Assembly (NCBI GenBank): GCA_025024175.1
Contig: QCXZ01000041.1
Span: 15,247,786 to 15,311,785, forward strand
Length of the DNA stretch: 64,000 bases
Reading direction: 5' to 3'
Source of the DNA: Rhyzopertha dominica
Lineage: Eukaryota; Arthropoda; Insecta; Coleoptera; Bostrichidae
Part shown: positions 8,681-59,829 of the stretch, piece after piece
Numbering within the stretch: the first letter of the stretch is position 1
Layout of the letters: each line of letters starts with the position of its first letter
Translations under genes and position numbers: made by a program
The notes under the pieces: generated by a model
What the model saw: only the letters and a program-made list of their open reading frames with translations
Told to the model about the DNA's origin: nothing
The model's database searches: none

Positions 8681-8767
8681 TGTAATGCTGACAGATGGCA
8701 TTGCCATCTAAATTCTTACTTACATCATACCATTGCTTTGGTATACAGGCAAAACCAGTTCCGTGCC

Positions 8768-8857
8768 GTGCTGTCTGCACTAGACCTAAACTGCACTCAT
8801 GAGCTGTAATGACAGCGAGATAGATCTATCTGCAGTTGGTTGGGGTGCAGACAGCAC
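8768..8857 (+). ncRNA. type I hammerhead ribozyme, core-mutated
   Basis: Outer stem I is a perfect 13-bp pair (8768-8780 with 8845-8857), and inner stem I is ACTGCA (8790-8795) with TGCAGT (8831-8836). Stem II is GCTGT-AATG-ACAGC at 8803-8816. Stem III is TAG-AT-CTA (8821-8828), and the cleavage triplet ATC ends at 8830. The core differs from consensus at two positions: CTCATGA instead of CTGATGA (8796-8802), and GAGA instead of GAAA (8817-8820). Both sites are invariant in active hammerheads, so this copy should not self-cleave even though every helix is intact. Confidence 0.8.
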
Positions 8858-9117
8858 AGCATAGACATGCATTTTAATGTATGTCGGTTCTTGCCCGCTA
8901 GCAAAAAGTGCCGTGGGGGCCGCTGTCAAATTGAAGTATGCAGTTGCATGCCAATTTGTCAGGCTACAGGTCACTTCCTTTAGGAAGTAGTACCCGTTAA
9001 GACAGCTAGGTGGCTTTGCGATCATGTCAGTGTGATGCTGACAGATGGCATTGCCATCTAAATTCTTACTTACATAATACCATTGCATTGGTATATAGGC
9101 AAAACCAGTTCTGTGCC

Positions 9118-9207
9118 GTGCTGGCTGTACTAGACCTAAACTGCACTGATGAGCTGTAATGACAGCGAAATAGACCCATCTGCAGTTGGTTGAGGTGCAG
9201 ACAGCAC
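9118..9207 (+). ncRNA. type I hammerhead ribozyme, intact core
   Basis: The core is consensus: CTGATGA at 9146-9152 and GAAA at 9167-9170. Inner stem I is ACTGCA (9140-9145) with TGCAGT (9181-9186). Stem II is five perfect pairs around an AATG loop (9153-9166). Outer stem I pairs 9118-9130 with 9195-9207, with one mismatch and one wobble. Stem III (9171-9178) is three pairs with one A-C mismatch. The predicted cut is between 9180 and 9181, after ATC. A very short stem III is typical of animal satellite hammerheads, which often act as dimers. The internal loop of stem I (9131-9139 against 9187-9194) is where the usual loop-loop contact with stem II would form. Confidence 0.85.
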
Positions 9208-9417
9208 AGCATAGACGTGCATTTTAATGTATGTCGGTTTTTGTCCGCTAGCAAAAAGTGCCGTGGTGTCCTGCTGTCAAACTGAAGTATGCAGTTGCAT
9301 GCCAGTTTGTCAGGCTACAGATCGCTTCGTTTAGGAAGTAGTACCCGTTAAGGCAGCTAGGTGGCTTTGTCATCATGTCAGTGTAATGCTGACAGATGGC
9401 ACTGCCATCTAAATTCT

Positions 9418-9879
9418 AACTATAGTGTTATTTTGCTCTAGCTAATTTTCGACCAGCACTTGATGCCCAACTTACTAACCACTTAAAATTAATAATTTTC
9501 TTAGTTTATCATAGTATGCATAGCTTTATTAAAAATCGTAATTTATATATGGCTTTTTATAACTTTGTATCAACCATCATGGTAACACGTACAGGAAAAT
9601 GCGTCTTGAGTGGGTCGAAATAGCTGTCAGCTTGTTTGTAACGTCAAACTTCTCCTTTCCTGACTCAACATATGTTATGTAATGAGGAAGGAAAGCTAGT
9701 TTAAGAGGGCCAACTGAAACATTAACTGTATAACCGTTAACTAATATTTAACTTCATGTGGTCTGGTATACGGTGGCTGAAGTGGTTTGCGAGAAAAACT
9801 GTCTTAAAATAATGGCTACAGAGGTGTTTTCTTGATGAATGCAGATTAATTAATTAGATACAGAGACTCCATTCAATTC
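9418..9879. other. no feature recognised
   Basis: AT-rich sequence between the ribozyme array and the integrase relic. It may include decayed pol sequence at its right end, but I see no motif. Confidence 0.4.
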
Positions 9880-10475
9880 TTCAGAAAGTTCAGCTGAAAT
9901 TGCTTAATATTAAGATAGTACACTGTTCTGTTCGTCACGCTCAGGCTAACAATTCTGAAAGGACTATGCGTGAACTAGGTAGGTTGTTCAGGACCTACTG
10001 TCACGCTAAACATTCAAAGTGGGCTTTGGAGGTTCCCAAAATAGCGAATTTCTTGAATGCTGTCGTTCATGAGTCCACTGGTTTTACACCGTTTGAACTC
10101 CAGTTTGGTAAGCCAAATCGCTCCTTATTACCTCCTGAGATAATTCATTCGACAGTTGTTAAAGACCATAACGCTCACGTTAAACTTTATTTGGCTCGAG
10201 AAAGTCTACAATCCCGCGCGGTACTTCGCCGGTTAAGGCAAACCGTATCCTAATTTTAAGGTTGATGATTTAGTGCTCCTTAGGAGTAATCCCTTTTCCT
10301 CACTATTACAACAACAAATTAAAAAGTTTATTTTGTTATACGAAGGGCCTTATCGTATTAAAAAGAAAGTTAATTTTTCAACATTTATTTTTGTGTGATT
10401 GTGTGGATGCCAACATCGAACGTCGTATGTTCCACGCTTCACATTTAAAGTTAAATGTATCTAATAGTAAATGAA
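9880..10475 (+). pseudogene. gypsy-like retrotransposon integrase C-terminus, broken
   Basis: The open frame 9900-10253 contains HAQANNSERTMRELGRLFRT, CHAKHSKWA and HESTGFTPFELQFGKP. These are the end of an integrase catalytic core and the start of its C-terminal domain. A frameshift lies near 10245, after which another frame gives DDLVLLRSNP, KFILLYEGPYRI and ERRMFHASHLK up to about 10473, with at least one further stop. Everything upstream of the integrase (gag, protease, RT, RNase H) is absent. The polypurine tract and LTR follow directly, so this is the 3' remnant of a 5'-truncated element and cannot function. Confidence 0.75.
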
Positions 10476-11553: not shown

Positions 11554-12114
11554 TCAAAGATATAAGATGATTTTGGTTGTAAATTAGCCCATACAATCTA
11601 ATATTGTCGTAGATTATCGCGGTGATAAGAAAGCGTGAGTATGTAGCTTACTGTCAATTCGAACTGTCACCATACATAAATCATAAAGCAAGTAAATCGC
11701 GGTCGGAAGGAAAATATTAAGCAATTGCCATGTCTGATTGCTGTGTTGTTTCAAAATAGCTCATACAGCTCTTTCAGAGCATTAATTGTGATCGAAACCG
11801 GAGAGTTCTCAATAGCGTACGAGAATAATGCAAATCTTGTAAAAAGTTTATGTTTTCTTATAAACTCTGTTACGCCATTTTTAAGTGGGGTCAAGAAAGT
11901 TTTTTGTATAGATCATTTTTATTGTTCCTTTTGCTATGAAATAAAATAACATTTGACGCTTCGGCCATTTAGTTTGTATTCTTTAAAAAAAAATTGGATT
12001 TCTAACATTTACAAAGCAATCACGTATAAGGACGTCTCATTCTTTTTAAAATTGGATTGATGTCTCACAAGAAGTTTTAACATAGATTCATTGTACAACG
12101 AATAATAAATATAT
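11554..12114. other. no feature recognised
   Basis: AT-rich, with a 74-codon chance-like frame on plus at 11725. The last 4 bases (atat, 12111-12114) are one copy of the solo-LTR target duplication. Confidence 0.4.
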
Positions 12115-12771
12115 TATTACGACTACGAGGTTTGAATACTACGGATTTCTGATTTAACTCATTTAATTTAAAACAGTTGTACCTACCAAATACACTAAGT
12201 CTAAACATAACTAGTTTAAAACACTACTGTTTTAACACTGCTCATTCACTAAACCACTTAACTGCACACACTAGCACTGAAACAACTACTTCACTAAGCC
12301 TTCCGTTCGCTTTGTAACCACTATTCGAATTCAGAACTGCCCGCGCTCTCTTCTTCGGGTTATTTATATCCCTATCGAAAATTCCAGAAGCGATACTGAT
12401 GTTCGCAGTTATTTATTTTATTAACAAAACTGGTTACATTAAACATTTAAAAGTGGTTTTTAATTTCAAAATAATAATTATAAAAATTAACTGTCAACTA
12501 TCTACTGTTTTTATATTCATCAGAGTACACATTGAAAAAATGTGTTGCCAACATAAAAATACACAAAGTGAAATTAGTCAAAATAAGATACCAACAGATA
12601 CCTTCCAGACGGCATCGAAACTTCGCGCGAAGGTTTCATTGATAGAATTCTCTGGAGAGTCTCGACATTACCTGCCATCTGTCTGTCGCTAGAATCACAC
12701 TTGGAGTGTGCTACTACATCGTATTTATACGCTTGCAACTCCGGCCCACAGATGGCGCTGACTCCGCAACA
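12115..12771 (-). repeat. solo LTR, minus orientation, with atat target duplication
   Basis: Read on minus it starts TGTTGCGGAGTCAGCG at 12771 and ends cgtaata at 12115. It aligns along nearly its whole length with the solo LTR at 46977-47423, for example agacagatggcag, tctccagagaattctatcaa, gcgggcag and tttagacttagtgtattt. The flanks are atat on both sides (12111-12114 and 12772-12775), the 4-bp duplication expected for gypsy-type integration. No internal region remains, so it arose by LTR-LTR recombination. It is about 200 bp longer than its sibling because of an insertion at about 12396-12596. Confidence 0.75.
12396..12596. repeat. about 200-bp insertion within the solo LTR
   Basis: Between the LTR blocks ctggaaggtatc and gcttctgg (minus sense), which are contiguous in the sibling LTR at 46977-47423, lie about 200 extra AT-rich bases. 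A tatc tetramer sits at both junctions, which could be a target duplication. No terminal inverted repeat or coding frame is evident. It is a small nested insertion of unknown type. Confidence 0.45.
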
Positions 12772-12775
12772 ATAT

Positions 12776-15872: not shown

Positions 15873-16305
15873 CAGGGTGTCCCTGAACATGTGGGCAATA
15901 TCTCGGGATCTGATAGCTGAGCTAAAAACATCACTATTTTACAGTATAACTTTTTTTGATATATCGTTCGCCTACTGAGATATTCACCCCTAAAGCTCTT
16001 TTGAAAAAATTGGTTTCTCCGAAATATCTTTTATACCGCTTGATATAATTTGATGAAATTTTCGCCATTAATATTTAAAATGGAGGCGATTAGAATAGTG
16101 CAGACACAGTTTTTGTAATTGCACGGGGAAGTTGGGGGTAAACTACCCTTCACCGTTTTTTTCTCTTAATTTTAAGGCGGGTAAGATTTTTTCCCCGAAA
16201 TAGGCGTTTTTCAATTCTCCCAAACTTAAGAAGAAAAAAAGGTACTCTTTATTCATTATCCTAAAGTTAACCGTTTTCGAGAAAAATGTACTTGAATAAC
16301 ATGGT
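15873..16305 (+). repeat. left terminal inverted repeat of DD41D element
   Basis: It matches the right arm (17632-17975, inverted) from tgagatattcacccctaaag onward with few mismatches, through gggtaagattttttccccga and ccgttttcgagaaaaatg. The 94 bp at 15881-15974 have no partner in the right arm. Confidence 0.85.
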
Positions 16306-16420
16306 TATAATTATTGTATTTATTAAATAATTACATAAATATAACATTACGAAGAACACTTAAAAACTACATGGAGCTACAAAAAAAAATTAAGAAGCTT
16401 CAACATGAGCTCCTCCAACT

Positions 16421-17515
16421 TCAATGCATTTTCGGACCCGACGAATTAGACTGCCGGATTCTCCAAAACACGGCAGCGTTATTACGTATTTCATCACAGT
16501 AAAATACTATACGTTCTATTAGATTATCCCTCGTTTCTACAGGAGTAGAGTAAACTAAGTTTTTCAGGTGCCCCCACAAATAGAAATCGAGAGGGTTAAA
16601 ATCTGGCGATCGAGGAGGCCAAGCAACAGGTCCTCCTCGACCTATCCATCGATTTGGATACGCATTATTTAAAAATTGTCGCACAGCAATACTAAAGTGG
16701 GGTGGTGCGCCATCATGCATGCACCACATGTTTTTTCTTGTTGCTAATGGAACGCCTTCTAAAAGCTGTTGTAAGTTATTTTGAAGGAACTGCAAATAGA
16801 GTTCCCCATATAATCTTGGAGGTAGCACATATGGTCCTATTAAATGGTCTCCTATGATTCCGGCCCAAACATTAACAGACTGAAACTGGAACTGGTGTCT
16901 TGCAACCACTGTGGAATTAGGGTTTTCGTCCGCCCAAACATGTAAATTGTGTGAATTTATTACACCGTTTTTCGTGAAACCAGCCTCATCTGAATAAAGA
17001 ATCGAACTAATAAAATCCCTGTTATTTGTGTGCTGTTCTAAGACCCAATTTGAAAATTCCACTCTAGCAGGAAAATCTTCATGACTTAGAGCATGTACCT
17101 TTTGAACATGAAAAGGGTGCAGTAATTGTTCTTGAAAAATTCTGGAAATAGTGTTTTTGGACACATTGTGTTGCACCGCAAGTTTTCTAATACTATTGGT
17201 AGGATCCGCAGCCACGCTATCCAAAACGTTCTCCTCTAGGACCACTGTGAGTACTCTTCTTTGGACGCTACCGTTCAAGCTATCTTTTACAAATTTTCCT
17301 AATAATTACAAATTGATATAAACATGCCTTTATGGATAATTTTATGTCCCACCTGTCTCCCTTAAACGTCTATCAACCCGTTCAAAAGTTTTCCGATCAG
17401 GAATCCTACGGTCAGGAAATCGTTCTGCGTACAACCTCACAGCTTCTGTACTATTACCAAGGGCTAGACCATACACTAAATGCATGTCAGCATATTCAGG
17501 AAATGAATATTCCAT
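16421..17515 (-). CDS. DD41D transposase, two exons
   Basis: Exon 1 is 17515-17353 and exon 2 is 17298-16421, separated by a 54-nt GT...AG intron. Together they encode about 346 residues, the usual Tc1/mariner size. The first ATG is used; the frame is open upstream only to a TTG. Residues 1-55 form a DUF4817 helical domain (YADMHLVYGLALGNSTEAVR, then RRIPDRKTFERV). Next is a helix-turn-helix (SIRKLAVQHNVSKNTISRIF) that should bind the inverted repeats. The catalytic core shows LYSDEAGF, MHDGAPPHF and SPDFNPLDFYLW, with 41 residues between the second and third Asp. It would excise and reinsert the element at TA sites in the nucleus. All three acidic residues are present and no stop remains once the intron is removed. 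Spacing fits the DD41D families described in insects. Confidence 0.85.
17299..17352 (-). other. 54-nt intron in the transposase gene
   Basis: On minus the intron starts acag|gtgggac at 17352 and ends aattattag| at 17299. Splicing joins RRLRETG to KFVKDSLNGS in frame. Unspliced, translation would stop at once (TAA at 17344-17342). The size is typical of short insect introns. Confidence 0.7.
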
Positions 17516-17631
17516 TTTAAAATGATTGTTGGATAACAATCACACCAGGAAAATTAAATGGAGTGACAGCTAATAATATTTTTTAGCGCCTACTATAAAA
17601 ATTAAATTGCTCGTGTGGACGCAAGTGAAAA

Positions 17632-17975
17632 TGTGAACCATGTAATTCAACAGCATTTTTCTCGAAAACGGTTAACATTAGGGTAATGAATAAAGAGTAC
17701 CTTTTTTTCTTCTTAAGTTTGATAGAATTGAAGAACGCCTATTTCGGGGAAAAAATCTTACCCGCCTTAAAATTAAGAGAAAAAAACGGTGAAGGGTAGT
17801 TTACCCCCAACTTCCCCGTGCAGTTACAAAAACTGTGTCTGCACTATTCTAACCGCCTGCATTATAAATATTAATGGCGAAAATTTCATCAAATTATATC
17901 AGGCGGTATAAAAGATATTTCGGAGAAACCAATTTTTTCAAAAGAGCTTTAGGGGTGAATATCTCAGACACCCTG
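17632..17975 (-). repeat. right terminal inverted repeat of DD41D element
   Basis: Inverted partner of the left arm. It reads CAGGGTGT directly into ctgagatattcacccc, so 94 bp found at the left end are deleted just inside the tip. Removing the sub-terminal region could affect transposase binding at this end. Confidence 0.85.
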
Positions 17976-45900: not shown

Positions 45901-46976
45901 TTCCTTACCTCTCGAAATGAATAGAACCCAAGCTAACGTTATTGACAATTTTCCAAGCTCTTACCGGCACAGAAATTACAGCAAAAGCATTTTCTGTAAA
46001 CCTCTCAAGAGCGATCATAACCACCAAGTCTCTCCGTTCCGGCAAACTTTTATTGCTAGCGATTCGCTCTCTTGCTTTTATGCTGCGATGCTGGAAACAG
46101 ATTTTTACATCCTACGTGTACTTTACTGCCGCGTGTTCGGATGGGAAATCGAAAACCCCGCGAAAATGTAATCAACTGCACGGCCAGGCAACTTTAATTC
46201 ATCCATCTAGCTGCAGCTGTTAATGTAGACTGACAGTTTTCGTGACAGGCTACATTAATGGTGAGGGACAGCATGGGGAAGGCCGAAATCTCGCGTGTGC
46301 TTTAGTTGAAACACATAAGGGATGGCTTCAGATTCATCATCAAGGTCTATATGATATGGTGTAACGTGAGAAGCATATTTTCCTTTTTAGGGGTGCCAGA
46401 TACTTGGAAATGTTAGGGAACAGTGAGAGATATCATTTACTAAAACTAATAGACCATAAACATCAATAATTGACATTTTTATTCCTGTATTACGGGTGAA
46501 CTATAGGTATAACCTAAACGAAGAACGTCTTGACATGAGGGAAAAATAAACCGATTGCTTATCTAGGAACTGTCAATAGTGGCAACTTCTTCTACCTGTA
46601 GAATGTAGATGCATAAAAGTTAATAATTACTCGTTTCATTAAATCGATTGTCCTTGATTAAGAAATCCATGTAGTGTTTTGATTTACGAAAGTAAGCAAA
46701 CATGAACCTTTGGGTCAAACGATAACAAAATTACTTGAACACCGCTTAATATCTTAATATCTAGATTATTCTTTAAAAAAAGATAATAATTCTTGCAAAC
46801 AAAAACCAGTTTGCGCAAGCGGTTTACGACTATTCGGAGTATTGCTAAGCCTTTTCCACCGTCAACACCCTGATTTCCTTTTCCCGAGGGAGTTATGATA
46901 GAGAAGTTTTAAAGTAAAAACAATATTTAGTCAGAAACTAAACTTATAGACAACCAGTACATGTAGATATTTATAC
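42997..46976. other. no gene recognised; possible weak LTR end near 43730-43890
   Basis: The segment at about 43730-43890 has an aataaac signal followed by ctgcgtggcgcccaggcgc, which resembles an LTR end next to a tRNA-primed binding site. No partner LTR or pol gene was found, so this stays weak. The 78-codon plus frame at 43464-43700 and those at 45917-46223 lack motifs. The rest is AT-rich. Confidence 0.35.
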
Positions 46977-47423
46977 TGTTGCGGAGTCAGCGACATTTGT
47001 GTACCGTAGTTGCATGCGTGTAGATGCGGTGTAGTCGGACACTGCAGGTAGTTATCCTAGCAACAGACAGATGGCAGAGAATGTCGATACTCTCCAGAGA
47101 ATTCTATCAATAGATCTTCGAGAAATTTCGATAGTTTCTGGAAGGTGTCGCTTTTGGAATTTTCGATGGGGGCATAAATAGTCCGACAGAGAGATCGCGG
47201 GCAGCTATGAATTTGAATAACGGTTATCAAATGAGCGAAAGGTTTGGTGGAACAGGTGTTTTTAGTGCTAGTGTGTGTAGTATAGTGATTTAGTGAATTA
47301 GTATTGTTAAAACGGTAGTGTTTGGAACTAGTTTTGTTTAGACTTAGTGTATTTGAAACAAATGTTTGAAATAAAAGGAAGTTAGTTAGAAATCCGCAGC
47401 TTTCGAACCTCTTATTCGTAACA
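46977..47423 (+). repeat. solo LTR with atac target duplication
   Basis: The 447-bp unit starts TGTTGCGGAGTCAGCG and ends CGTAACA (inverted TGTT...AACA). It is flanked by atac on both sides (46973-46976, 47424-47427). A TATA-like gcataaata lies near 47172. It matches the minus-strand solo LTR at 12115-12771 along its length apart from that copy's insertion. No internal region is left. Confidence 0.8.
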
Positions 47424-47689
47424 ATACTAATATTACATCCTTATCGTTATTCTATAAATAAGAACCGCCTTAGGAATAACAGAAATAGTGGACCAATTTT
47501 TAATAAAAGTGTTCATTGAAATTAAATAACTACTTCATAATCTAGTAAGCTAAATAAACACGCACTTCAATTCTACTATAAGTTTATAACTTTAAGCTTG
47601 TTTCGGGTTAGGATAAGATAAAGTATAAACCCAACCATATATTTGTACAGGGCTGATTAACATGTACCAATCTGTGCGAACTTAGTGGT

Positions 47690-49367: not shown

Positions 49368-50528
49368 TATACAGGGTGTCTCTAAATTCGATGTCATAAT
49401 TTCTATTGCGTGTTCCTGACGTGAATTTATGACGAAAAGTCTATATAAACATGTGTCCGAAAATGCTTCATTTTTGATATACAGAGTGTTGAGGTTGAAC
49501 AAAAATTTTCGAATTTTTTTATTTTTTAGAGAACGGTTTTTTGAAACTTTACGAATTTTGGCAGAATGTTATAATAGATCATGGCTAATAATCCGGCATA
49601 AAAGATTTTTTCATATCTTTAACAGAGGCGGCGTAGGGGGAGGGGCAGAGGGATTTTCTCTTTGAAAAAAAGTTGTGTGTGAAATGTCAAAAAGCTCGTT
49701 ACTATTTTCAGAAAGAGCAACAAATAAGGTACAAAAAAGGATCTCTTATTGCATTTCGCTAGAACGAACCGTTTTCGAGAAAATCGAGAAAATATGAATT
49801 CCTACAGGCTGGCGCAAATAGACCAAAAATTAACTTTTTTTTATTTTCCACAGAAATTAACGTTTATATGGCAACAACTTTTTGAAAGTAATTGAACTCT
49901 ATCATTGCAAATGTTCAATATAAGGATTACCTCCATATTTAGGGAGGGGGAGCAAAAAGTCTTTTTTTTTTAAAGATTGTTTCCACATTTTTTAAATTGT
50001 TTCAAAAATTATGAGGATCAGTTAAAAATATTAAAAGAAAAATTTACATTTTATACTGCTAAGACAATCTATTGTTGTAAGATTAAGAAATTGCATTTTT
50101 TAAAGATTTTTTAATAACGCCAAATGCAAGTTGCATATCTAGCTTTAAATAATAATTAGTTTAATTTAATTAATTAATTTAATATTTCTTTTTTATATTT
50201 TACTGGTCTTTATAATTATTGAAACGGTTTTAAAAATGTGGAAACAATCTTTTTATAAGAAAGACTTCTTGCCCCCTCCAAATTACCGCCACTGTTTAGA
50301 TATGATGGTAATCATTTGTGTCTGACCATTTATCATGATATAGTGCGATTAATTCAAAAAAATTGTTGCCATATAAACGTTAATTCCTTTGGAAAACAAA
50401 AAAAGTTAATTTTTGGTCTATTTACGCCAACCTGTTCAGGTTTTGTCGATTTTTTCGAAAGCGGTTTGTTCTAGCGAAATGCAATAAGAGGACCTTTTTT
50501 GTACCTTATTTGTTGCACTTTCTGAATA

Positions 50529-50711
50529 CAGGGTGGCCCATTAGTGCGTGGACGGAATATTACGCAATTGTTATTATAGTTTTTAAAATTCTGCAAGTGC
50601 AGCGTGGTAGGGAGTGCTTAAGCCTACAAAATAAAAATATTTTTGCTCCTCCCACCACATATACGGGGGTGGTTCAATACATTCTTATATTTTTTTAAAT
50701 GGAACACCCTG
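50529..50711 (+). repeat. 183-bp terminal module with its own CAGGGTG...CACCCTG ends
   Basis: Bounded by cagggtggccc at 50529 and ggaacaccctg at 50711, with ta following. An inverted copy occupies 52246-52428 and is also 183 bp. It has the look of a small MITE sitting at each end of the larger element. Confidence 0.6.
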
Positions 50712-52245
50712 TATATTATTACATTTTTGGATTCCTCTTTTAATTTTAATGGGACTTAATATAACATATATGGGGTCTAAAATACACTGTTGTAAGGTTA
50801 TTTAATTTTTTTACAAAATTTTGACATTTCGGAAAATTATTATATTTTCAAAACCTTTATAGCTAGAGAAATGCAGTTTTCGCAGGGATGTTACTAATAA
50901 AATGCACATCATCTGTAGATATAAAGGATTAATATAAGAATAGTTAGTAGTATTAAAATTTACTTTAGAAATTTGATCATACTCAATCCCAGCCAACTCG
51001 ATTTTTTTAAATAGCACCCTATTTTACTTTCACCGTAGTTTAATGCGCAAATTAATTTCCTTTTATATGATATAAAGAAGTATGCATCTATCTCTAATAG
51101 TTTTTAAGAAAATTGATTATTTTTAAGTTTAGTTACATTTTAGTCCTTTTTATAGTAGGCTATGGAGAAAAAAATGAATGCGCTTTTATCAGCTTTAAAC
51201 TGTTTGCTTGATATCAGTAGTTCTACTACATATGTATGTGTCTATCTTCAATCATTTTTGAAAAAATGATGTTTGTACTACTTTAGTCATATTAACATTA
51301 ATATAATGTTTAAAATTAAAAAAAAAACAAATAAATATAGTCAACATGAGTATTATGGTCTAATTGAAAATTCAAAAACATCGTTAAAAACAAAATCAAT
51401 AAACGTAACCCATAACAAAATAAAAATAAAGAACAATAGTAGGTGGTAGGTAAAAACGAAACAAAAAAAATACAAGAAATGTAACACAACAAAAAAAGTA
51501 ACAAAAGTATCTGAAAACAACAAAGCAACAAAATGTAAGAAACGTAACACTACTAAATAACTCAAAAGTAATAGTATGCGAATACAAGGAGACAAAGAAG
51601 TACAAGGAACGTAACAAGTAACAAAATAACACAAAGTAACAAAAGTATGTGAAAACAAGGAAACGAAGAATGTAATGGCACTGCAACTTACAACAAATGT
51701 TCAAAATGGCGACCGTTGTGGTGTAAACACATTTTAACTCTACTACAAAACAGACAGTTTAAAGCTGATAAAAGCGCATTCATTTTTTTCTCCATAGCCT
51801 ACTATGAAAAGCAATAAAATATAACTAAACCTAAAAATAGGCAAATATCTTAAAAACTATTAGAGATAGATGCNTACTTCTTTATATCATATAAAAGGAA
51901 ATTAATTTGCGCATTTAACTACGGTGAAAGTAAAATNGGGTGCTATTTAAAAAAATCGAGTTTGCCGGGATTGAATATGATCAAATTTCTAAAGTAAATT
52001 TTAGTACTACTAACTATGCTTATATTAATCCTTTATATCTGCAGATGATGTGCATTTTATTAGAAACATCCCAGTGAAAACTGCATACCTCTAGCTATTA
52101 AGGTTTTGAAAATATAATAATTTTGCAAAATGCAAAAATTTTGGAAAAAAATTAAATAACTTTACAACAGTGTATTTTATACCCCATATATGTTATATTA
52201 AGTCCAATTAAAATTAAAAGAGGAATCCAAAAATGTAATAATATA

Positions 52246-52428
52246 CAGGGTGTTCCATTAAAAAAAATATAAGAATGTATTGAATCACCCCCGTATATGC
52301 GGGCGGAGGAGTAAAAATATTTTTATTTTGTAGACTTAAGCACTCCCTACCAGGCTGCACTCGCAGAATTTTAAAAACTATAGTAACAATTGCGTAATAT
52401 TCCGTCCATGCACTAATGGGCCACCCTG
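52246..52428 (-). repeat. inverted partner of the 183-bp module
   Basis: Starts cagggtgttcc at 52246 and ends gggccaccctg at 52428. It is the same length as the left module and in opposite orientation. Confidence 0.6.
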
Positions 52429-52765
52429 TATAGTGACGAGCTTTTTGACATCTCACACACAACTTTTTTTCAAAGAGAAAACCCTTCTGCCCCTCCCCCT
52501 ACGCCGCCTCTGTTACACATATCAAAAAATGTTTTATGCCAGATTATTAGCCCTGATCTATTATAACATTCTCCCAAAATTCGTAAAGATTCAAAAAACC
52601 GTTCTGTAAAATATAAAAGAAATCGAAATCTTGTTTTTAACTTCAACACTCTGTATATCAAAAATGAAGCATTTTCGGACACATGTTTATATAGACTTTT
52701 CGTCATGATTTCTCGTCAGGAATACGCTCTAGAAATTATGACATCGAATTTAGAGACACCCTGTA

Positions 52766-54842
52766 TTTTGTGTGCCAAGCAGTGTGTTTTGCAAAAACTA
52801 TAATATCCCTATTTGAGTAAATGATCTGATTGTAAAAGTTAATAGAGTAATAAAAACCAAGAAACGGCAAAGGTTTTGTAAATCTGTAAACGTCGTGGTT
52901 CATCTGCCCATTTAGCACGAGTTATTTTTATTTTATACACCGCATTTTTGCGAGGGGTAAAACATGACGATGAAACCTAATTTTCAAGAAACCAGAAATT
53001 ACATTGTACTAAGGCAGCGGCTTGCCTACAGCAGATGCGGCTTAGGTAATTGCCCGAGGAGACTGAGACAAAAGACGCACTGAATTATGTAGAAGGCAAC
53101 GCCGAGTCAAAGGACTTCATTAAATATTTAGCGGAAGGTCGAGCAAGAAGGAAAAAAAGACGACGTTGCCGACAGCTAATGCCCCACTTGGCAAATTTCT
53201 CATAAAAATAAGGAACGAGATGCGGTTTTTGCAGATTGCCGTAAGAATAAACAAGCAATTTCGACAGTTTACGTATGATGCGTGATGCTTTTAAGGTTAT
53301 TATGTGCCACGCATTTTGTTGGATTTATTGAAGCGCGCTCCTGAGCATCGAAACTTTTCAGAAGCAACAATTTGCACTAGCATCTAGTTCTCACTCATAA
53401 ATAATTTACGTAGAAATCAGAAGCAAACGCTTCGTTAGTCCGACTGGTTCGTACTGAATAACGATTTACTTTACGTCCACCTTAATTACTTAATCGGAAC
53501 GCAGTAGGTAATGGTCGAACGTGAATGTATAAAGGCGTTTCGGAGTTGTTTCCAGCAATCAGCGATTTGCCAACGGATAAACGTTGGGTAACAGGAAATT
53601 AAATTCTCGAGACACCATCGCAATCAGGGCAAAACGCCGTAACTGCGTCAGATGCAGCGATACCTCGAGTAATCAGGGTTCTGTGGTAGCCTGTAGAAGT
53701 CAATCGGGAACAAATCTGGACTATCCAGGTGGACATTAAATTCAATGAAATTACAGCTGTAGAGGATTTTTAATGCGTAAAATCACTCTTTCTAGTTCGC
53801 CGGAGATTATATAGTTGCACTGACTAATAGGTTCAGACAGAGTCGCCACAAGCAGTAACTTCAAAGAAAATGAGCACTGAAGTTGTAAGAACGTAAGCTT
53901 TCACACCCAGAGTTAGATAGAAATCTTAGTCTTTTTGGGTTAGACCACGTCCGCTTTTGGAATAAGGTCTCCGCGATATAACCCATATGACTAAGATTTC
54001 GAGAACAGAAGTTTGAAAACTAAAGTAATTATTAAAAGCAGAGTAGACTCTATTATCTCAAAATACAGACATAACCTTTTCGGGAAATGTGAGTATTTAT
54101 CGGATACACAAAATTCATGTTCATTGTTGCACCTAAAAAATTACGAAACGTAGAAATATATCTCCATAATCTGGGCAAAATTCCTAAACAAGCAACGGCT
54201 TACAAGCAGTTAAAAGCAGAACTAAAGAACATACTGAACAAGGGTGAAAGAAGCCTCAACATTCGATGTATATGAGACATTTTTTGCATTTAATTATTTT
54301 TCTAATCTAATCTGCCATTGCCACTTACACACTGAAAAAATTCTGTATGGGTAATCTCATTTTCGCTGTCAGAATTAATCCAATCAATTAAGCTCTCTTT
54401 ATCATTTTATCGTTAACTCCGTAATGACTTGCTCTTCTACCTCGTTAGTTTCATTGCTGCGATTAACTTTTTTTCGATAGCGCTTGCATTAATACGTATC
54501 GTATATACAATTCTACGACTTAGGAACAAATAAACAACATGCTCTGAATTTAAAGTGCATAGGCACAGCATTAAATTTTGAAACTTATCCTACTCCGCTT
54601 GATTTAACATCGACTCAAGTAGAAGTCCTTGGTAACTTAATTTTAGAATCCCCAAAACTGCTTATTCCTTATTCCATGGGTTTTAGTAACGTTAGGAAGA
54701 AGACACAATACCTCTATTTCTCCTTTTTGGTTTAAAGAAAACGGCTTTCCTCCCATAAGAGTTTTCTTAACCATTGGAATCGTTTAAAACGAAAAAAGCG
54801 TTCGACTCCAACTCTATCAATAACGAATATTAATATTAATAT
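52766..54842. other. no gene recognised
   Basis: From about 53000 to 53720 the sequence is less AT-rich and looks unique, but no frame or motif stands out. Confidence 0.35.
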
Positions 54843-57260: not shown

Positions 57261-58637
57261 GGCGAAATAATGTCATCAAATATTAAATAAAACCCTAACA
57301 ACGGAATAACGTTAGTAATTACAAACTGTATATAAAGCTTACTTAATCGATGAAGACAGGCCAAGGAAAAGGCTAAAATTAAAGTATACTAACAGTGGAC
57401 TTCCTACTAAACTACTTATAAAGCTCAGAGTTCCGATTCATTAAATTATATATTTTTAATCGTACAGTTTATGATGAGACAGAAAAACTTCTTGATGTTT
57501 TCTTCTTGTTATATATGCTTAAAACCTTGCTATTTTAATGATAAAACCAAAATGTTTAGATCACAAATTTTTCCTGGGGGACATATCCACATGGGGATGC
57601 TTATGCCATCCATGCGCAAATTGAAAGATAAATGAAAGCTGCCCGGCAAATTTCCATTAAGTATAACATCGCGGTCCCGACTGCAACTTACTAATTTATG
57701 TGGTCCCACGATTTTATAAAAAAATAAAACAACAGATAAGAAACATTTTCTAATATCAATACTATAATATTAAAGACGATACATCTAAAGTTTTTGAGAG
57801 TATCGCTTAGTATTTTATAACTTCTTATGTTTCGTTTGTATAATGTCTTAACTGTTATAACGTATTACTGGCAATTAGAATTTTCAGTATTATTGGAACC
57901 AGGTTGTATTACATTTCAAGCAACAATAATACAAAGTCGCACTGACATCAAGTCCATAACTAAAGTCATTCTATATCAAGTCCCAGATAAATTTACAAAT
58001 TATACTTTTATTTATATTTATAAAAAAATAATAATTTAAAAGCTTCATATTGATTTCTTACAAAATTATATTACTGATTTTATTTGATTGAAGTTTGCGA
58101 TCGCATAATTTTATATAAATATTGTTGTGATCTTTCGATCAACCTTGAGGTTTTTTTATAATAAAGAGTACTCTTTCATTTTTACCCAGCTTTCGACTGG
58201 TTTTTCAGTCTTCTTAAGGGCTATTACAAACACAGCACTTATAGGTTGCAGGATTGAAATATTTAACTCATCTTACTTATTCTTATTTATTACACATTCT
58301 GAGATTAAGTATAAATCCATCTTTTACAAACAAACACTAGTAAATTTCCTCCATTTAGTTTACATATTAAATTATACATTTCAAAAATAAAATAATACCA
58401 GACTTTTTGTCAAAGTTGTAATGTCAAGTCACAGCGTAAACGATGAAAAAAGATTTTTTCATATTAAAATCCTAAAACTATTGCCCGTTTAATTTTAAAG
58501 ATAATAATTTGATGAAGAAGGTCAAGAGACAGTAAATACATGTGTAAATGCTGCGTAATTGATTTGTACCAAATCTTTTGTTCATGGTGATTTCTATTTT
58601 ATTGATATGGTACAGGTCAAGAATTAAACTTTTATTG
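57261..58637. other. no gene recognised
   Basis: AT-rich. Frames at 57827-58039 and 58127-58390 plus are Phe/Ile/Tyr-rich and chance-like. On minus near 58185-58220 the sequence contains the two arms of a short inverted motif (gactg/cagtc), of unknown meaning. Confidence 0.35.
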
Positions 58638-58982
58638 AAATGCATGTCTATGCTGTGCAAAACCAGTTCTATGCCGTGTTGTCTACACTAGACCTAAACT
58701 GCACTGATGAGCTGTAATGACCGCGAAATAGTACTATCTGCAGTTGGTTGAGGTGTAGACAGCACAGCATAGACATGCATTTTAATGTATGTTGGTTCTT
58801 GCCCGTCAGCAAAAAGTGCCGTGGGGGCCTGCTGTCAAATTGAAGTATGCAGTTGCATGCCAATTTGTCAGGCTACAGGTCACTTCCTTTAGGAAGTAGT
58901 TCCCGTTAAGGCATCTAGGTGGCTTTGTCATCATGTCAGTGTAATGCTGACAGATGGCATTGCCATCCTAAATTCTTACTTT
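58638..58982 (+). repeat. third copy of the 350-bp hammerhead repeat, single and 5'-truncated
   Basis: From caaaaccagttct (58658) to taaattcttactt (58982) it follows the units at 8681-9417, starting at unit position about 69 and running past one unit end to position about 37. The distal end falls within a few bases of where the 8681-9417 array ends. Its 5' junction carries 21 bases (58638-58658) that are the exact inverse of 58762-58782 in the same copy. The orientation is the same as in the array. Confidence 0.8.
58676..58765 (+). ncRNA. type I hammerhead ribozyme, intact core, compensatory stem change
   Basis: Core CTGATGA (58704-58710) and GAAA (58725-58728) are consensus. Inner stem I is ACTGCA (58698-58703) with TGCAGT (58739-58744). 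Stem III is perfect (TAG-TA-CTA, 58729-58736), with the cut expected after 58738. Stem II (58711-58724) has one U-C mismatch. Outer stem I (58676-58688 with 58753-58765) has 12 Watson-Crick pairs and one wobble, although both strands changed relative to the unit at 8768-8857 (a G-C pair there is A-U here). This is the kind of paired change expected if the RNA fold matters. Confidence 0.85.
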
Positions 58983-59829
58983 AAACTTTTATTGGTTTTT
59001 TGTCCAAAACCTTAACATTTTCCCCATGAACACTACGATCGTTAATCAATACATGTTCAGCTAGAGCACATCTATCACGTTTTGTGGTGATATCACTTTT
59101 TGTGAAAAGCTAATCTATTAGATAGCCATTGGGGAGTTCTTTCTTCTTCTTTCAACTAACACCTGAATTAGAACAACCGCTCAGGAATGAAGCAAGAATT
59201 CGAAGACCATGACGATTTCGCTAAAATACGAATAGAAACCGGTAACCTCTAAATCACCAACTACTGAAGGTTAAAATCGGAGATAAAATATATGTACGTC
59301 ATTAAAATAAATTGCAAAAAAGACAGCTATCTGATGAACGACATCACATACTTTACATACTACAGTTGATCGAGTACCGAAACAAAATAGACGAGAACCT
59401 TAACCGCCTGAAACAACGGAACAGATCGACACAGTTCCGTTAAGGCCGGAAGCAGAGTAATATCCGCAATGGCTCCCATGCCATTTGCAGAAGAAAAACA
59501 AGAAAAAATTCATCTTACTTGGCTGGCTCTGCACTATCGGAACGCACTCTTGGAATATAAGGAACCTGATTGTGTATATTTGCCCTATTTAAGGAGATCT
59601 AATACTGCTACTTTAGCAACAAGTATCTAAAACGATGAATCATAACCGATGAGTACCAAAAAACTGATTTTAGGTATGTGTCACAAACAATATTTTTTTT
59701 GTCAGCGGTTCCCAAAACCATAATTCATAACAAATAGTGAGCTTGAAATTTTAATTACCATGCGACCATAGTAACCAGTTTGTTTAATGTAAACAAAAAT
59801 ATTTAGACGCGTTCTTTTTGCACGGTTTG
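58983..59829. other. no feature recognised
   Basis: AT-rich sequence with no nameable motif. Frames on plus through 59260-59640 are interrupted. Confidence 0.35.

Follow-up and report, generated by a model that had tools for sequence, protein, structure and literature searches.

The locus considered here raises two linked questions: what a tandem, ribozyme-bearing repeat of about 350 base pairs is in the genome of the beetle Rhyzopertha dominica, and which machinery places its copies in the host DNA. The repeat lies in a 64,000-nucleotide stretch of contig QCXZ01000041.1, the whole of which is referred to below as the window. A sequence-only reading of that stretch had described two non-coding head-to-tail units at 8681..9417, had assigned to each of them every helix of a type I hammerhead, and had likened them to the mobile, RNA-borne elements known as retrozymes. 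The tandem arrangement is borne out by a one-directional array (copy A) that comprises 2.1 head-to-tail units, at 8681-9421:

8681..9030, + strand: copy A unit 1, 350 bp, a direct repeat 92.6% identical to unit 2
9031..9381, + strand: copy A unit 2, 351 bp, the first base of which (9031) is u1 in the unit numbering
9382..9421, + strand: copy A partial third unit, about 40 bp, 95% identical to the unit start

The array therefore reaches 9421, and it is not confined to that place, as a further copy (copy B) occupies 58638-58980 and more are found elsewhere in the genome. The unit contains no coding frame, in agreement with what had been claimed; the sole long frame in copy A, of 145 aa and antisense, has no Pfam match. 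The GC content of the 350- and 351-bp units is 0.466 and 0.456, respectively. The array is absent from the output of Tandem Repeats Finder, and its two borders, when checked for a target-site duplication (TSD), have no word of 6 bp or more in common. The partial third unit terminates at about u37-41, within an end class that is designated S below. Approximately 440 bp beyond the array, at 9858-10253, is a 131-aa frame that by eye resembles the end of a retroelement integrase and has no Pfam match.

Within the unit, the hammerhead core is located at u116 and the predicted cut follows u150. Helix I (AACTGCA/TGCAGTT) is prolonged by a long outer helix, helix II reads GCTG-TAATGA-CAGC, and helix III is short and sits on a palindrome. 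Three such regions are present in the window:

8758..8870, + strand: hammerhead region of unit 1; descriptor match with 2 core mismatches; Rfam HH9 at 20.2 bits, sub-threshold; predicted cut after 8830
9108..9220, + strand: hammerhead region of unit 2; perfect-core descriptor match; Rfam HH9 at 25.5 bits, sub-threshold; predicted cut after 9180
58666..58778, + strand: hammerhead region of copy B; supported by descriptor and pairing probabilities; Rfam HH9 at 20.8 bits, sub-threshold; predicted cut after 58738

The predicted cuts in copy A are separated by 350 nucleotides, exactly as had been proposed. With a strict descriptor, the window yielded just two hammerheads with a perfect core, at 9146 and 58704 (both on the + strand), while 25 dinucleotide shuffles yielded none, and a chance motif was dismissed on that ground; when up to 2 core mismatches were allowed, the descriptor added unit 1 and a few chance matches, and the shuffles then gave 68. 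A covariance-model search of the window placed Rfam Hammerhead_HH9 at all three copies, with none of the scores (25.5, 20.2 and 20.8 bits for unit 2, unit 1 and copy B) reaching the threshold of 52, and no Rfam model matched anywhere in the window at gathering scores. Antisense matches of a custom hammerhead model were dismissed as a reflection of the self-complementary outer helix.

Each of the three hammerheads is impaired, every one in a different part. Unit 1 possesses all of its helices and carries two core mutations (CTCATGA, and GAG for GAA), because of which its hammerhead is predicted to be inactive; the core of unit 2 is intact and its helix III is, by inspection, down to 2 bp (ATAGACCCAT); and copy B combines an intact core with a mismatch within helix II. 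Calculations with ViennaRNA, a secondary-structure model that ignores tertiary contacts, gave helix III of unit 1 a pairing probability of 0.68-0.77 and that of unit 2 one of 0.0, assigned at most 0.04 to helix II of copy B, and put the hammerhead fold of the window copies above the free minimum by 1.0 to 2.7 kcal/mol. The earlier assignment of type I helices to both units thus stands, with the correction that the core of unit 1 is mutated and helix III of unit 2 is weak; these two defects make the pair of cuts that would free a 350-nucleotide RNA from copy A unlikely. Release of a 350-nucleotide circle by this locus alone is correspondingly unlikely, and copy A as a whole is probably inactive. 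Among the window copies, the hammerhead region is not better conserved than the remainder of the unit, and covariation across the three stays within its control, a value as high being reached in 151 of 500 shuffles.

The copy at the far end of the window, found by a BLAST search of the unit against the window, displays a different organization:

58624..58637, no strand: left TSD of copy B, 14 bp, a perfect match to 58981-58994
58638..58980, + strand: copy B, 343 bp, sharing 92.9% identity with unit 1 across 283 bp and enclosed by the 14-bp TSD
58638..58657, - strand: inverted 5' arm of copy B, an exact reverse complement of 58763-58782 (20/20), with its outer end at about u193-198, the end designated L below
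58981..58994, no strand: right TSD of copy B, 14 bp, a perfect match to 58624-58637

Copy B is slightly shorter than one unit, and its order is permuted, with u69-350 followed by u1-41; the inverted arm can be extended to 25 nucleotides at 96% into the flank. The presence of this second window copy, together with the further copies in the genome, led to the dismissal of a single-locus satellite.

Several unrelated repeats share the window. A Tc1/mariner-like transposon at 15975-17967, with inverted repeats of 332 bp at 95.8%, contains a frame (16421-17305, - strand) with weak Pfam matches to DDE_3/HTH_Tnp_Tc3_2 below cut-off, and its Tc1-like transposase has 1135 protein matches and a 97% identical protein in public data. 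A large nested foldback at 49369-52766 is built from the pairs 49369-49705/52430-52766 (92%) and 50526-51209/51748-52431 (93%), with a 75% self-palindrome at 49707-50526 and ends that read TACAGGGTGTCTC. A dispersed inverted repeat, 78-81% identical, is found at 12112-12775 and 46973-47426.

A search of the host genome (479,159,283 bp in 138 contigs) yielded 3592 first-look candidates, with 103 matches among the best 40 that were scored, and established that the family unit of about 350 bp has many dispersed copies on many contigs. From this one genome, 39 loci besides the window were fetched, ranked by their similarity to copy A rather than sampled at random. Together with the window they provide 132 hammerhead regions, after removal of those with fewer than 95 of 113 positions covered or crossing a locus border. 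The core is intact in 111 of the 132, so that genomic copies keeping it do exist, and 82 show no damage in the core, in helices I-III or at the cleavage-site base. Of the 39 fetched loci, 38 contain one or more hammerheads of this undamaged kind, and 25 contain two or more. Divergence is 1.9% in the core columns versus 3.7% in the other columns of the hammerhead region. The longest sampled array (L025:337-4111; 3,775 bp, about 11 units) runs in one direction, ends at L and has no clear TSD. Exact searches with two DNA patterns of the unit drew no match from the viral-contig and genome-contig collections, and one core string of the unit occurs in none of the open-licence papers searched.

In the same 132 units, six pairs have changed on both sides, in 33 cells, whereas a control of 300 shuffles, in which shared descent was retained, averaged 3.1 pairs and 7.9 cells and never exceeded 15 cells; 24 of the 33 double-changed cells fall at one base pair. 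Of the 132 regions, 119 have a palindromic helix III decamer, which reads ATAGATCTAT in 79 and ATAGTACTAT in 40. These two forms differ by a double swap, and no intermediate with AA or TT was seen in the 132 regions. Within one molecule the central bases of the palindrome are loop bases, and between two molecules they would pair, a property consistent with a dimeric hammerhead, although the same tallies would arise from two old subfamilies.

In copies of the family, the ends that correspond to RNA 3' ends cluster at two unit positions, S (about u42) and L (about u197): there are 32 S ends, within u33-61 (29 of them at u38-50), and 32 L ends, within u195-212 (25 of them at u196-198), in a count that omits two ends cut by region borders and uses bins drawn after the data had been seen. 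S corresponds to the foot of a stem bearing a AGATGGCA-n-TGCCATCT hairpin, and L, which lies just downstream of the hammerhead, by inspection to the loop of the u184-205 hairpin. L therefore falls about 47 nucleotides after the predicted cut and S about 108 nucleotides before it, and several arms are longer than one unit.

The fetched loci comprise 27 in which two arms stand head to head and 12 that are one-directional. Two of the former (L040 and L043) meet a region border, and the 25 that are complete demonstrate: (i) that each has one S and one L end (25/25, with neither S+S nor L+L seen), an outcome with a chance of about 3 in 10^8 by our own arithmetic if ends are even and independent; (ii) that the arms are of unequal length, with junctions that in most loci are off by a few bases, as either an overlap or a gap; and (iii) that 19 of the 25 are flanked by a clear TSD of 9-15 bp (score of at least 8), compared with 0 of 956 control pairings of flanks across different loci. 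Six of the 25 miss that strict score; at a looser score of 6, the counts are 20 of 25 and 14 of 956. Copy B obeys the same rule, with its S end at the right and its arm to u193-198 (L) at the left. The one-directional loci end at S in six cases and at L in six, with the opposite end scattered, and have a TSD in 0 of 12 by the strict score and 1 of 12 by the loose one (control 0/431). The mobility proposed for the repeat is thus supported both by TSDs and by two fixed end points of reverse transcription, and its retrozyme-like character by the type I hammerheads, a unit of about 350 bp without a Pfam match, dispersed copies with TSDs, and the 82 intact regions among 132.

A comparison was afforded by a Penelope-like family resident in the same genome. 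A GIY-YIG search gave 144 matches among the best 150 of 2080 candidates, many of them close opposite-strand pairs, and 20 loci (L060-L079) were fetched, 17 of which had been picked as such pairs; their head-to-head form is therefore an effect of selection, which leaves the nature of their ends unaffected. All 20 belong to a single family, with long alignments at about 95-99.9% identity, and the near-identity of copies (up to 99.9%) suggests recent activity. Domain matches to both RVT_1 and GIY-YIG were obtained with the frame that L061 carries, and to a single one of the two with portions of L060 and L075; a filtered domain search returned nothing above noise for the L060 and L079 frames of full length, and a PDB search with the Penelope-like protein returned nothing relevant. 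In 19 of 19 complete loci, one end is short and the other is long, the two lying about 38 bp apart with an AC-rich extra piece on the long end, and TSDs of 12-16 bp flank 18 of the 19 (control 0/724 strict and 13/724 loose). The twentieth locus presents one end only. The hammerhead descriptor found no match in the 20 loci or in 12 further GIY-YIG loci, several of the same family, and no sequence is common to the retrozyme and the ends of the one Penelope-like family compared (best E 2.6). A 33-nucleotide retrozyme fragment (91%) is present at L070:3534-3566, about 350 bp outside the Penelope-like insert.

Biochemical work on a lizard Penelope-like protein has demonstrated that the protein initiates reverse transcription internally on the RNA, at two neighboring sites within an AC-rich stem-loop, that it cuts and extends both target strands, and that the ends of genomic copies match the start sites (PMC11167929). 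In rotifers, the relevant passages of PMC3846280 describe Penelope elements whose pLTRs are inverted, one of which may carry a tail, and whose TSDs measure 8-10 bp. The retrozyme resembles these elements, as far as those passages describe them, in that its inserts are inverted and head to head, with the longer tail on one of the two sides, and in its short TSDs, internal start sites and tandem copies. It differs from them in encoding no protein and in having a full-length rather than a minimal hammerhead, and the tail between its two start sites is about 155 nucleotides, versus 38 bp in the resident family. Since the unit has no coding frame, the retrozyme may work like a Penelope-like element, yet it is not one.

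The regularity of the ends bears directly on other routes by which such copies might have arisen. A LINE might move the retrozyme by ordinary target-primed reverse transcription, with the inverted arms as products of twin priming; the lengths of the TSDs are compatible with that account, twin priming is described in the pertinent part of PMC2837659 as yielding 5' inversions within TSDs, and a portion of PMC4918200 compares the 15-bp TSDs of Nematostella repeats to those of LINEs. Twin priming on L1, however, joins one RNA 3' end to variable internal points, whereas here both outer ends are fixed, S is paired with L in all 25 complete head-to-head loci, and the resident family displays an equal pairing, in a comparison confined to Penelope-like elements. 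We accordingly regard movement by a LINE as unlikely, and ordinary twin priming, once entertained for the inverted arm of copy B, was dropped because the complete head-to-head loci proved to be S+L.

Accounts that dispense with reverse transcription fare considerably worse. The head-to-tail units, the one-directional array of about 11 of them at L025 (3,775 bp), and the existence of hammerhead satellites (as treated in part of PMC2837043) might point to plain tandem satellite DNA that carries a ribozyme motif and is spread by recombination, an explanation rendered very improbable by copies across many contigs with TSDs and two fixed ends. Just as improbable is a DNA transposon of the foldback or another inverted-repeat kind, in which a hammerhead-like repeat is carried by chance: its terminal inverted repeats would look like the head-to-head arms and TSDs seen here, but the outer ends of the 25 complete loci are never the same sequence (S versus L), their arms are unequal and their junctions imprecise, and the hammerhead core is conserved.

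The elements that the family most closely resembles are the metazoan non-LTR retrozymes, which are characterized, in the sections of PMC7229834 that introduce them, by type I hammerheads in short tandem units with TSDs of more than 4 bp when present, and by hosts that include insects and other arthropods. The repeat has in common with them a type I hammerhead, a non-coding tandem unit of a few hundred bp (350/351 bp, within a range of about 150-450 bp), many copies, a GC content below 50%, TSDs longer than 4 bp (here 9-15 bp), an arthropod host, and a genome that also holds Penelope-like elements (the RVT_1 and GIY-YIG family). It departs from them in that the sampled insertions are, for the most part, head-to-head and pair an S with an L end; a word search of the main text of PMC7229834 finds neither 'inverted' nor 'head-to-head', and we found no report of S+L pairing in retrozymes among the open-licence papers surveyed. 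Type I hammerheads in repeated DNA are likewise described, in the parts of the sources concerned, for the pDo500 satellite of cave crickets (PMC2837043) and for the W-elements of Schistosoma, for which a TSD is noted in one case (PMC8490949); compared by description rather than by sequence, those passages contain no paired end classes. The relevant text of PMC4918200 mentions 15-bp TSDs around repeats of Nematostella, and a tick example as well. Also alike, according to that text, are the LTR retrozymes of plants, which are non-autonomous retroelements whose RNA is cut by hammerheads; they differ in their type III hammerheads, LTRs with PBS and PPT, 4-bp TSDs and larger circles. The best reading, from a comparison with published units by description, is of a new family of metazoan non-LTR retrozymes.

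The arrangement of the copies suggests that Penelope-like retroelements are the movers, and both LINEs and Penelope-like elements have been named as candidate movers of retrozymes, the latter as a strong candidate (in a section of PMC7229834). We consider it likely that the window locus preserves, in decayed form, a non-LTR retrozyme of the animal type, and that new copies arise by Penelope-like, two-ended priming at S and L; against this stand the one-directional form of copy A and of 12 of the 39 fetched loci and the lack of any sequence in common with the ends of the sampled Penelope-like family. In such a process, arrays would be transcribed into multimeric RNA, which would be cut to unit length by the type I hammerheads, perhaps acting as dimers through the palindromic helix III, and a circular or multimeric RNA would then serve as template. 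Penelope-like machinery, comprising a reverse transcriptase and a GIY-YIG endonuclease, would open both strands of the target DNA; reverse transcription would begin at S (about u42) on one strand and at L (about u197) on the other, and the two cDNAs would be joined head to head within a target duplication of 9-15 bp. Because L lies after the cut, S lies before it and several arms exceed one unit, we infer that the cut linear unit would be a poor template.

Extended to animal retrozymes in general, the proposal, toward which we lean by a narrow measure, is that Penelope-like machinery integrates them by using one ribozyme RNA twice, with a separate stem-loop for each strand on either side of the cut; every complete two-armed insert would then have one S and one L end, and the template would be a circle or multimer rather than the cut linear unit. 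The finding bears on the identity of the enzyme that mobilizes the ribozyme-bearing RNA circles of animals. It provides, in one genome, a large family whose two-armed inserts can be counted by a simple signature, the pairing of one S with one L end, that is common to the resident Penelope-like element, and by virtue of that signature the question of the mover may be tested in any animal genome that harbors retrozymes, and with one purified protein.
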